Positions 46,084 to 49,397 of a DNA stretch of 49,397 nt are shown here, in pieces. The number at the start of each line of letters is the position of its first letter. Positions within the stretch are counted from its first letter, which is position 1. A program made the translations under genes and the position numbers. Under the pieces are notes generated by a model. That model was not told the origin of the DNA. It ran no database searches and saw only the letters and a list, made by a program, of their open reading frames with translations. The stretch spans positions 1 to 49,397 of the forward strand of contig CAIRYQ010000083.1 in assembly GCA_903882875.1 (NCBI GenBank), written 5' to 3'. This stretch comes from an uncultured Spartobacteria bacterium (GTDB taxonomy: Bacteria > Verrucomicrobiota > Verrucomicrobiia > Chthoniobacterales > Chthoniobacteraceae).

Positions 46084-46596
46084 TCACGAATCAAGGCGTG
46101 GGAAAAAGCCAGCAGTCTTCGCTGCCTCATGCGATGGATTCGCGATTGGTGCCGGGCCGAATCGCGCCGCCAGCACGCAACGCCGGAACGCAAAGATGCG
46201 CTCGATATCCGGTCGGACGAACAGCCGGTGCATGAGGATGTCGAAAGGCACGGCATAGCTCTCTGCGTCCCGGCAGAGACTGCCGCCGCCGATTGACTGG
46301 AAGGAGTGTTCGTGAACCCACAGCCTGTAGGGGCCGCGGCGCTGCTCGTCCACGAAACGGAACGGCGGCTCCCATGCGGTGATTTCACTTTGCCAGCGGA
46401 GAGGAAAGCCGTGAACGCGGAGCCGGTAGTCAATCAAAGCCCCAGGTCGCATCTCGATGGGACGCGGCGTGAGGATTTTGAAACGGAGCCACGACGGCGT
46501 GAGCTGCTGAAGGTTTCCCGCATCGCCGAAGAACGGGAAGACTTCGTCCATCGGGCGCGGGAGCCATTGATCGGCGTGGAATTCGCGAATGAGCAT
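46084..46596 (-). CDS. SRPBCC (START-like) ligand-binding family protein
   Basis: A 170-residue helix-grip protein from the ATG at 46596: FHADQWLPRPMDEVFPFFGDAGNLQQLTPSWLRFKI, then GALIDYRLRVHGFPLRWQSEITAWEPPFRFVDEQRRGPYRLWVHEHSF, a typical SRPBCC/cyclase-dehydrase core (COG4276-like). Homologues are often next to LitR/CarH, photolyase or carotenoid genes. It overlaps the carH stop by one base (46596-46598) and precedes rdgB by 9 bases, so it is in the middle of a coupled operon. Role and ligand unknown. Confidence 0.86.
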   Translation of the reverse strand: MLIREFHADQWLPRPMDEVFPFFGDAGNLQQLTPSWLRFKILTPRPIEMRPGALIDYRLRVHGFPLRWQSEITAWEPPFRFVDEQRRGPYRLWVHEHSFQSIGGGSLCRDAESYAVPFDILMHRLFVRPDIERIFAFRRCVLAARFGPAPIANPSHEAAKTAGFFPRLDS

Positions 46597-47537
46597 CAGT
46601 CGTGAGCTTTTCGCACGGGTGCGCGGCGCAGCGAATCGAGCTGGCTGCCGAATTCCTCGATGCTGTCCGCGCACAGCGCGCCGATGCGGATGAGCGCCTC
46701 GAAATATCCGCGCGCGGCACGCCCTCCGGCGAGGACGCGCGTGCTGGCCGGGATCAACCGCGCGAGTTCTGCCAGTTCGCGGGGAAGGTTCGGATCGTCC
46801 GCGGGATATACGATGCTGAGTGCGACGGCGACGGCTTCATTGCGCAATGCGGCGCCGGCGATCTCGTGCGCAGGCAGATTCGGGCCGAGGTAAATGGGAC
46901 GCCAGCCGAGATTCGCAGCGGTCGCGGCGGCCATGATCGCGCCGAGTTCATGGAGCTGCCCGGCGGGCGTGGTGACGATGATGCACGGCGCGCTCACCGG
47001 GATGACAAACTGGCGCGTCAGGTCGCCGAGGAAGACCTTCACCGAGGCGGTGAAAAAATGTTCGTGCGCCGCGGTGAGCGCACCGGAGCGCCAACGCTCG
47101 CCGATCTCCTCGGCCAGCGGTGCGATGACGAGCCTCAGCAGGCCCATGTGTCCAAATTTTAACAACGAGCGGCTCAACACTTCCTGCAATGCCGGGCCAT
47201 CGAAGCGGCCAATCGCGGCCAGCGATTGGTCGCGGAATGTCGCGACGAGATCGTCGGCACCATGAACCGCGGTGCTGCGCGAGACGGCCGACTGTTGCAC
47301 GATCAGTGCGCGCAGTTCCTCGGTCGGCAGCTTCGCGATTTTCCCGATGCTGTGCCCGCTGCGCACAGCCCGTTGCAGCATCCCGATCCGCTCGATTTCG
47401 GCCTCGGAATAGAGCCGGTGTTTTCCCGCCGAACGTTCCGGCTCGATCGCCCGATACCGCCGCTCCCACGCGCGGATGACGTGCGGAGTCAGACCAGTGC
47501 GTTCGGCGACTGTTTGAATGGGAAAGGAGGCAGCCAT
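46596..47537 (-). CDS. CarH/LitR-type B12-dependent photoreceptor repressor (MerR family)
   Basis: 313 residues from the ATG at 47537. Residues 5-75 are a MerR HTH (FPIQTVAERTGLTPHVIRAWERRY, HRLYSEAEIERIGML). Residues about 95-170 form the helical cap with the CarH W-x9-EH signature: W139, E149, H150. Then a Rossmann cobalamin domain with the lower-ligand His H186 in AGQLHELGA (Gln replaces the usual Asp of DxHxxG). In Thermus CarH these correspond to W131, E141, H142 and H177. The residue after the Trp, His132 in Thermus and needed for the bis-His light state, is Arg140 here. It is divergent from the DUF2892-crtI unit, as expected for a light-responsive carotenoid repressor. The CDS overlaps the SRPBCC start by one base. 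Confidence 0.92.
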   Translation of the reverse strand: MAASFPIQTVAERTGLTPHVIRAWERRYRAIEPERSAGKHRLYSEAEIERIGMLQRAVRSGHSIGKIAKLPTEELRALIVQQSAVSRSTAVHGADDLVATFRDQSLAAIGRFDGPALQEVLSRSLLKFGHMGLLRLVIAPLAEEIGERWRSGALTAAHEHFFTASVKVFLGDLTRQFVIPVSAPCIIVTTPAGQLHELGAIMAAATAANLGWRPIYLGPNLPAHEIAGAALRNEAVAVALSIVYPADDPNLPRELAELARLIPASTRVLAGGRAARGYFEALIRIGALCADSIEEFGSQLDSLRRAPVRKAHD

Positions 47538-47548
47538 TGAATGCTGGA

Positions 47549-47576
47549 TACATAGACAGCAGTTGAACAAACGCAA
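47549..47576 (-). promoter_or_regulatory. Predicted carH promoter
   Basis: On the minus strand TTGCGT (47576-47571), 16 bases, TATGTA (47554-47549), leaving 11 bases to the ATG at 47537. The short leader agrees with other promoters in this window. The four-unit repeat array (47553-47596) covers this promoter. Confidence 0.45.
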
Positions 47577-47596
47577 GAAAAACGCTAGACAATCAA
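47553..47596 (+). promoter_or_regulatory. Predicted CarH operator, array A (four 11-bp repeats)
   Basis: Four direct units at exact 11-base steps: TAGACAGCAGT (47553), TGAACAAACGC (47564), AAGAAAAACGC (47575), TAGACAATCAA (47586). The first and last carry the TAGACA core; the two middle ones are degenerate but share AACGC at the 3' side. The core is close to the TnTACA half-site of Thermus CarH operators, which also repeat every 11 bases. The array overlaps the predicted carH promoter, suggesting autoregulation. Confidence 0.55.
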
Positions 47597-47616
47597 TGAA
47601 TTTGTCGAACTTTGAG

Positions 47617-47649
47617 TTGACATTAATAAGACACAAATTAGACATCTGC
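47617..47649 (+). promoter_or_regulatory. Predicted CarH operator, array B, over the DUF2892-crtI promoter
   Basis: Three direct units at exact 11-base steps: TTGACATTAAT (47617), AAGACACAAAT (47628), TAGACATCTGC (47639). The GACA core repeats at 47619, 47630 and 47641. Unit one is a perfect -35 (TTGACA) and unit three coincides with a TAGACA -10 after a 16-base spacer, so bound repressor would occlude the promoter. The leader to the DUF2892 ATG is 38 bases. Confidence 0.65.
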
Positions 47650-47682
47650 CGCAGAGCGAGTTCACATTCACCCACAAATCCC

Positions 47683-47889
47683 ATGTCCTTCCTCCGCCCA
47701 AACCTCGACACCAAAGGCCGCATCATCCGCGGAATCAGCGCCCTCGCCCTCGGCGTGGCCGCAGTCCTCACCTGGCCGCATTCGCGCGCCGCCGGCATCG
47801 CCCTCGCGGTGTCCGCACTGTTCGTCGCATTCGAAGCCGCGCGCGGCTGGTGCGCCCTCCGCGCCTGCGGCGTGAAGACGAAATTCTGA
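47683..47889 (+). CDS. DUF2892 (YgaP transmembrane-like) small membrane protein
   Basis: A 68-residue protein from the ATG at 47683: NLDTKGRIIRGISALALGVAAVL, a second helix GIALAVSALFVAFEAARG, then WCALRACGVKTKF. The Asn/Gly/Arg start, two membrane helices and terminal C-x5-C-G-x-K-T are the DUF2892 pattern (C-P-x-Y-x3-G-x-x-T in most). It is 28 bases ahead of the phytoene desaturase gene and likely shares its transcript. Confidence 0.8.
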   Translation: MSFLRPNLDTKGRIIRGISALALGVAAVLTWPHSRAAGIALAVSALFVAFEAARGWCALRACGVKTKF

Positions 47890-47917: not shown

Positions 47918-49397
47918 ATGAAGAAAGAAGTCATCATCATCGGCGCAGGCCCCGGCGGCCTCGCTTCCGCCATCCTGCTCGCCGCCAGTGGGGTGAAAGT
48001 GAAAGTCATCGAGCGTCTGCCGACCGTCGGCGGACGCACGTCGTCCATCGAGTCGGATGGTTTCAAGTTCGACCTCGGCCCGACGTTTTTCCTCTACCCG
48101 CGCGTGCTGGAGGAAATCTTCGCCGCCGCCGGCACCTCGCTCCGCGCGGAGGTGGAAATGGTGCGGCTCGATCCGCAATACCGCATCATCTTCGGCGGCG
48201 GCGGGCAGATTGATGCCACGCCCGACATCGCCCGCATGGAGCAGCAGATCGCCGCGATCGCGCCCGGCGACGCCCCCGGCTTCCGCCGTTTCCTCGATGA
48301 AAATCGCACGAAGCTGGCGCGCATGGAGCCGTGTCTGGAGACGCCCTTCGACGGCTGGCAGGACCTCGTGAATATCCGCCTGCTGAAGATGCTCCCGATG
48401 CTCCGTCCGCATCAGTCGCTCGACACGTATCTCGGCCGATTCTTCCGCGACCCGCGCATCAGACTCGCGTTCTCCTTCCAATCAAAATACCTCGGCATGT
48501 CGCCGTTCCGCTGCCCGAGCCTGTTCTCGATTCTCTCGTTCCTCGAATACGAATACGGCGTCTTCCATCCCATCGGCGGATGCGCCGCGGTGACCGTCGC
48601 GATGGCCCGCGTGGCCGAGCGCCTCGGCGTGGAAATCCGCACCGACTCGCCCGTCGAGGAAGTGCTCTTCGAGGGCAGCCGCGCCGTCGGCATCCGCACC
48701 GCTTACGGAGTGGAAATGGCGAGCGCCATCGTGATGAACGCCGACTTTGCGCGCGCGATGAAGCGCCTCGTGCCCGATCGTTTGCGCCGTCGCTGGAGCG
48801 ACCGCAAAATCGCCGGCAAGAAATTCTCCTGCTCGACCTTCATGATGTATCTCGGACTGGACCGTATCTATCCCGACGCAGAGCATCACATGATTGTGTT
48901 CGCGCAAGACTACAAGCGATGCCTGGAAGACATTACGAAAGCCAAGATTGTGTCGGAAGATCTCTCCGTGTACGTCCGCAATGCCGTCACGCTGGATCCT
49001 TCGTGCGCTCCCGCAGGCCACTCCGCGCTGTACATCCTGGCGCCCGTTCCAAACAACACCAGCGGAATTAATTGGGACGAGCACAAGGCCGCCTACCGCG
49101 AGAACATCCTGCAGTTGCTGGAGACACGAACTCCCTACACAGATATCCGCGAGCACATTCAGGAGGAACTGATTCTGACGCCGGCTGATTGGGAGAAGAA
49201 GACCTCAGTCTTCCTTGGGGCGACGTTCAACATGGGCCATAGCTGGGACCAGATGCTCTACTTTCGGCCGCATAACAAGTTTGAGTTATTCGACAATGTT
49301 TATCTGGTCGGCGGAGGAACGCATCCCGGCAGTGGGCTTCCGACCATCTTCGAATCAGCGCGCATCTCTTCCAATCTCATCTGCGACAAGTACGGCG
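47918..49397 (+). CDS. crtI: Phytoene desaturase family FAD enzyme (CrtI), 3' end beyond the window
   Basis: At least 493 residues, no stop before the window ends. FAD loop IIIGAGPGGLASAILLAASG at about 5-24, VIERLPTVGGRTSSIE, FKFDLGPTFFLYPRV, YLGMSPFRCPSLFSILSFLEYEYGVFHPIGG, and the C-terminal VYLVGGGTHPGSGLPTIFESARISSNLI signature of bacterial CrtI. It introduces double bonds into phytoene or a diapophytoene-type substrate; whether it is CrtI or a CrtN/P relative is not certain. It is downstream of array B and DUF2892. From about 48880 to the end, GC at third positions falls. Confidence 0.93.
   Translation, partial: MKKEVIIIGAGPGGLASAILLAASGVKVKVIERLPTVGGRTSSIESDGFKFDLGPTFFLYPRVLEEIFAAAGTSLRAEVEMVRLDPQYRIIFGGGGQIDATPDIARMEQQIAAIAPGDAPGFRRFLDENRTKLARMEPCLETPFDGWQDLVNIRLLKMLPMLRPHQSLDTYLGRFFRDPRIRLAFSFQSKYLGMSPFRCPSLFSILSFLEYEYGVFHPIGGCAAVTVAMARVAERLGVEIRTDSPVEEVLFEGSRAVGIRTAYGVEMASAIVMNADFARAMKRLVPDRLRRRWSDRKIAGKKFSCSTFMMYLGLDRIYPDAEHHMIVFAQDYKRCLEDITKAKIVSEDLSVYVRNAVTLDPSCAPAGHSALYILAPVPNNTSGINWDEHKAAYRENILQLLETRTPYTDIREHIQEELILTPADWEKKTSVFLGATFNMGHSWDQMLYFRPHNKFELFDNVYLVGGGTHPGSGLPTIFESARISSNLICDKYG

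Follow-up and report, generated by a model that had tools for sequence, protein, structure and literature searches.

What is the role of the regularly spaced repeats that separate a carH-type gene from a divergent carotenoid gene in an uncultured Spartobacteria bacterium? The repeats lie in a gap of 145 bases (47538-47682), more A+T-rich than the flanking DNA, within the window, that is, the whole stretch of 49,397 nucleotides that was analysed. On one side, the carH-type gene P0001 (46596-47537, - strand; start at 47537, CAT at 47535-47537) encodes a regulator of 313 amino acids with MerR winged-helix, four-helix and Rossmann B12-binding domains. Its stop overlaps by one base (ATGA) the ATG of an SRPBCC/polyketide-cyclase-like gene (46084-46596, - strand; Pfam PF03364, E 3.9e-9), so the two probably belong to the same operon. 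On the other side, the first gene encodes a small YgaP-like TM (DUF2892) membrane protein (47683-47889, + strand, beginning with ATG at 47683; PF11127, 24.4 bits, slightly below the cut-off of 25.3). A crtI-family carotenoid desaturase gene comes next (47918-49396, + strand; TIGR02734, 516.6 bits, cut-off 238.1) and is incomplete, running past the contig end (49397). The same genome encodes an adenosyltransferase (PF01923) for the cofactor, two squalene/phytoene synthase genes and one photolyase gene. From the sequence comparisons described below, we propose, with a probability of roughly 0.85, that the repeats form a pair of operators, one for each divergent promoter, to which the B12-dependent CarH-type repressor encoded next to them binds.

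An earlier note on this DNA had described seven units with exact 11-base spacing, four in an array A and three in an array B, most of them containing GACA. The units were located at the claimed coordinates, and five of the seven contain GACA. All are read on the + strand. Array A consists of TAGACA (TAGACAGCAGT, 47553-47558), TGAACA (TGAACAAACGC, 47564-47569), AAGAAA (AAGAAAAACGC, 47575-47580) and TAGACA (TAGACAATCAA, 47586-47591), and array B of TTGACA (TTGACATTAAT, 47617-47622), AAGACA (AAGACACAAAT, 47628-47633) and TAGACA (TAGACATCTGC, 47639-47644). Five units carry a full TnnACA direct repeat (DR), and two (AAGACA and AAGAAA) are degenerate. Scored on T..ACA, array A reaches 14/16 and array B 11/12, and the starts of the two arrays are 64 bases apart (about six helical turns). 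Two further elements accompany the arrays. A possible extra unit, TTCACA (47661-47666, + strand), stands in phase with array B, 22 bases past its third unit; it is present in the relative L005 and absent in L028. Between the arrays lies TGTCGAAC (47603-47610, - strand), a conserved element that is inverted relative to the array units and reads TCGACA on the - strand. It is conserved within the genus and occurs on the divergent strand in 4 of 65 carH upstream regions (shuffle mean 0.16).

Such regularity is not expected from the composition of the gap. When the gap was shuffled 5000 times with its dinucleotides preserved and read on either strand, the score of array A was reached 4 times, that of array B 23 times and the two jointly never. 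Within the 49-kb window, searched on both strands, every three-unit score of at least 10 and every four-unit score of at least 12 falls in the gap, on the + strand. Across the whole genome (5.78 Mb), the four-unit pattern with at most two mismatches has three matches, one of them in the gap (none for the reversed-pattern control), and the three-unit pattern with at most one mismatch has five, again one in the gap (two for the control). The matches elsewhere in the genome (contigs C47, C64 and C120) lie where coding sequence is dense and show no clear connection to this system; one array-like match, CAGACA/TTTGCA/TGCACA/TTGACA, is found at G000:C64:13969-14007 (L085). The stretches around the photolyase gene and both squalene/phytoene synthase genes contain no perfect 11-base pair.

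The product of the neighbouring gene is a plausible reader of these units. P0001 matches Pfam MerR_1, B12-binding and B12-binding_2, and thus joins a MerR DNA-binding domain to a cobalamin-binding domain. Its best solved relative is Thermus CarH (5c8d, E 3.3e-25), and its AlphaFold model (pLDDT 93.2) matches CarH and CtMerR structures with Z of 22 and above. In particular, CtMerR is the best structural match of the B12 part of the model (Z 22.6, rmsd 2.6 over 213 residues). As in Thermus thermophilus CarH, a MerR and B12 protein with Wx9EH and a lower-axial His, the Wx9EH motif is present (W149, E159, H160). So are the His and the spacing of the B12 motif D/ExHx2Gx41SxT/Vx22-27GG (H196, G199, x41, S241-I-V243, x27, G271-G272). 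The first residue of that motif is not acidic in P0001 (Q194), and the protein is therefore described here as CarH-like, not as a strict family member; its score for the NCBIfam equivalog NF052513 is 124.5 bits, far below the cut-off of 400. Compared with Thermus CarH, Glu175 is replaced by Gln and His132 by Arg (R150). Among 66 related proteins, the Trp131-equivalent is W in 65, Glu141 is E in 66, His142 is H in 64 and His177 is H in 65. The Glu175-equivalent is Gln in 61 and Glu in 5, the His132-equivalent is His in 2 (Arg in 37, Gln in 11), and the residue before the Glu141-equivalent (the H158 place) is His in 48.

How do the units compare with known operators? The CarH operator consensus is nnnnTnnACAn in tandem 11-bp direct repeats, some of them degenerate (accessible part of PMC9304148), and is also given as nAnnTnnACAn (accessible part of PMC8156234). 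The gap follows this rule, with five of its seven tandem 11-base units full and two degenerate. The earlier note had taken the known core to be TnTACA and read the G in place of T as a possible lineage-specific operator code. This claim has to be withdrawn, since the published consensus fixes neither of the two middle bases, and a TTGACA unit is present in the gap on the T. thermophilus JL-18 plasmid itself (TGTACA, TTGACA and TATACA at 11-base steps). The likeness to the Thermus thermophilus operator extends to the 11-base TnnACA units, the TTGACA unit that doubles as a -35 (a candidate one here) and the divergent carotenoid gene. The layout differs, however: the single operator of Thermus has three units and lies on the carH strand, whereas here two arrays stand on the opposite strand. 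CarH operators of Myxococcales and Bacillus megaterium likewise combine full (DR) and degenerate (dr) 11-base units, three to five in number, and Sorangiineae also have a divergent crtI-carH arrangement in which CarH is thought to act on the divergent promoters (accessible part of PMC9304148). For S. cellulosum, the same text proposes one shared site per gap for the two promoters, while here each candidate promoter has an array of its own. CtMerR (PDB 8JBS/8JBT) shares with P0001 the MerR-B12 build and an Arg in place of His132, and it is photoresponsive; the accessible part of PMC11796333 describes no operator for it. Operators of this kind have been described in other phyla; what differs here is the paired layout, together with some of the sensor residues. 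We found no paper on verrucomicrobial CarH in a literature search with little coverage of subscription journals.

If the arrays are CarH operators, similar units should adjoin other CarH genes, a comparison that the earlier note had suggested. A search of 57 related genomes gave 22 with a match at 1e-3, a search of 384 genomes of the class gave 55 with a match at 1e-40, and further genome contigs gave 6 loci. Eight duplicate loci, matches weaker than tblastn 1e-20 and CarH places at contig ends (G357, G264) were dropped. The final set holds 66 CarH genes, nearly all verrucomicrobial, of which 65 have usable upstream DNA (L031, with 59 bases only, was excluded from the upstream counts; L030 and L028, which come from the further genome contigs, were counted). 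These regions share kinship, so the counts are not independent; the proteins form 53 clusters at 70% identity. Dinucleotide shuffles were used for the spacing counts and the gap test, and mononucleotide shuffles for the counts of perfect pairs, proximal/distal pairs, TTGC/GCAA and TGTCGAAC.

The 11-base TnnACA periodicity recurs. On the divergent strand, the 65 regions hold 62 pairs of TnnACA units 11 bases apart, where shuffles give 0.52 on average (maximum 3 in 100 shuffles); the carH strand has 2. Spacings of 9, 10, 12 and 13 give 3, 5, 2 and 1 pairs on the divergent strand. Perfect pairs occur in 41 of the 65 regions and 34 of the 53 clusters, compared with 2 of 1440 strand-segments taken from these loci as controls. 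They are lacking in the other 24 regions, the close relative L005 among them, and six of the 65 have no TnnACA within 250 bases. Pairs scoring at least 7/8 are found in the carH-proximal part in 34/65 regions, in the distal part in 44/65 and in both in 28/65, where shuffles give means of 1.6, 6.0 and 0.2 (maxima of 6, 14 and 2 in 200). With perfect pairs only, the figures are 16/65, 34/65 and 9/65. G takes the third place in 77 of the 118 units of perfect pairs (TAGACA 47, TTGACA 21); judged from these sequences, the preference is real and class-wide, yet it is no departure from the published operator rule. Further peaks of TnnACA spacing in the 65 regions, at 19, 22, 30, 31 and 41 (11, 16, 12, 11 and 12 pairs, against 0.27-0.51 on average in shuffles), hint at operators that are split 2+2 around a TTGACA unit. 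Five proteins that retain Glu at the Glu175 place (L075-L078, L080) have no perfect TnnACA pair upstream. Among CarH loci on plasmids, which stand outside the set, Gemmatirosa has one divergent-strand pair and Caballeronia none.

Closer relatives show which parts of the arrays are maintained. Both arrays persist in two relatives of 89% identity, where 35 of 42 hexamer columns are identical compared with 12 of 35 linker columns (core against all non-core columns, Fisher p 0.014; p 0.042 with L028, of 68% identity, included). Across the four aligned relatives, unit 1 of array A is TAGACA in all, and units 1 and 3 of array B are identical in all. Unit 2 of array A reads TAAACG, TGAACA and TAGACA in the other three, and is broken in L005 (TAAACG). 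Unit 4 is present in the two 89%-identity relatives and lost in L028, where array B has a spacing of 10+11. Unit 2 of array B reads GAGACA, TAGACG and TAGACA in the relatives. Unit 3 of array A, which the earlier note had counted among the four, is a degenerate AAGAAA that is not conserved among close relatives.

The position of the arrays relative to candidate promoters bears on what they might control. On the carH side, the hexamers TTGCGT-16-TATGTA are present on the - strand, with a candidate -35 at 47571-47576 and a candidate -10 at 47549-47554 that overlaps unit 1 of array A (TACATAGACA, shared with the two 89%-identity relatives but absent from L028). A TTGC element at the equivalent offset recurs in the class: 17 region/site pairs have it at 20-22 bases from the proximal TAGAC, and in 28 of the 65 regions GCAA stands 20-45 bases from the start of carH (7.3 on average in shuffles, maximum 13). 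These recurring offsets make it very likely that the proximal array overlaps the carH promoter, as had been suggested. On the crt side, units 1 and 3 of array B had been read as -35 and -10. The first part holds for the sequence, as TTGACA is a perfect and conserved -35 hexamer. The second does not hold as strong evidence: TAGACA, after a 16-base spacer, is a weak candidate -10 whose last position is not T, and a strict sigma-70 scan of 47480-47720 accepted no promoter.

The genes around the arrays in other genomes offer a further comparison. Among same-genus and same-family genomes without a full-length CarH match, crtI is found at 1e-60 in 3 of 22, and among genomes with a different CarH and a sigma-type neighbour in 0 of 3. 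In one of the three with crtI (L102, from a genome 79% complete), carH is missing and the SRPBCC and DUF2892-crtI genes are still divergent; the gap at this one clean carH-loss locus has no array and no pair, with best three-unit scores of 7/12 and 9/12 on the two strands. Two other candidate loss controls (L103, L104) were uninformative, as crtI follows another gene there. Divergent partners were picked mechanically as the longest ORF, a choice that is sometimes wrong; 63 were picked and 35 scanned. Sigma-70 region 2 occurs in 19 of these 35 (16 with regions 1.2 and 3, RpoD-like, and 3 ECF-like; L014, L016, L017, L042, L046, L049 and L074 are among the sigma-type loci), and a CarH-controlled sigma factor seems to be common in the class. 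Fasciclin domains occur in 7 of the 35 (L037, L081, L059, L070 and others), and one member of the 35, which include the L076 ORF, matched a nucleoside-recognition Gate domain. At L028:3-3648, an aldehyde dehydrogenase gene and a second crtI-like gene come after crtI, an order that by inference suits a C30 carotenoid acid pathway; pigments of the C30 carotenoid acid type are reported from Rubritalea (accessible part of PMC3967232).

For this system we infer binding, repression, autoregulation and a light response along the following lines. In the dark, CarH oligomers carrying adenosylcobalamin (AdoCbl) would line up on one face of the DNA, with one DNA-binding domain on every 11-base TnnACA unit. 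Occupancy of array B would cover the -35 of the DUF2892-crtI promoter and repress the carotenoid genes, and occupancy of array A would cover the carH promoter, so that carH represses itself. Light would break the Co-C bond of the cofactor, release the oligomer and open both promoters.

Other explanations have to be weighed against these paired CarH operators. The repeats could have arisen simply from promoter hexamers and a high A+T content, in which case no repressor would bind them. The gap is indeed A+T-richer than its flanks, and TTGACA, a -35 box, makes up 21 of the 118 paired units. Yet shuffles that keep the dinucleotide composition fall far short of the observed pairs (0.52 against 62), the more frequent TAGACA (47/118) is not a standard hexamer, perfect pairs favour one strand by 41 to 2, and hexamers are more conserved than linkers, all of which leaves this explanation very improbable. 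It is somewhat less improbable, but still hardly to be expected, that a different protein, MerR-type or binding head to tail, recognises the 11-base units and that CarH is a mere neighbour. Other small MerR-like proteins bind direct repeats too, and some CarH genes lack an array (the six regions with no TnnACA). Against this, the units match the published CarH consensus and the array is absent at the carH-loss locus L102. Moreover, the pairs adjoin CarH genes whose divergent partners vary (crtI, sigma factors, fasciclin), so CarH is the common part.

A third explanation, unlikely though clearly less so than the other two, accepts the arrays as CarH operators but takes the regulator to be mainly a cobalamin sensor, which light would dissociate inefficiently without His132. 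This His follows the Trp in many, but not all, CarH. Its equivalent is Arg here and is not His in 64 of the 66 proteins, and H132A Thermus CarH stays mostly tetrameric in light (accessible part of PMC10442372). On the other hand, CtMerR, with Arg at this place, still photolyses and rearranges (accessible part of PMC11796333), W149, E159 and H160 are retained, and the target genes are photoprotective. Given the tetrameric H132A protein and the responsive CtMerR, the light step of the paired-operator model is less sure than its binding step.

A broader reading, which we hold tentatively and with more doubt than belief, is that verrucomicrobial CarH forms a distinct photoreceptor branch. With no bis-His ligand, a Gln in the B12 motif and often HEH, these proteins would need another switching route. 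They would read G-type units (TAGACA) from paired operators, two oligomers could bridge both promoters on one face, and the same module would control a sigma factor in many genera. If this were true, green light would be the signal for a whole sigma regulon. As it stands, the paired-operator proposal predicts to the single base where a B12 photoreceptor would bind in a phylum for which we found no CarH paper, and the rule of TnnACA units at 11-base steps can guide the search for CarH targets across dozens of uncultured genomes. Finally, with His132 missing in nearly all of these proteins, the family would allow a direct test of the need for bis-His ligation in release by light.
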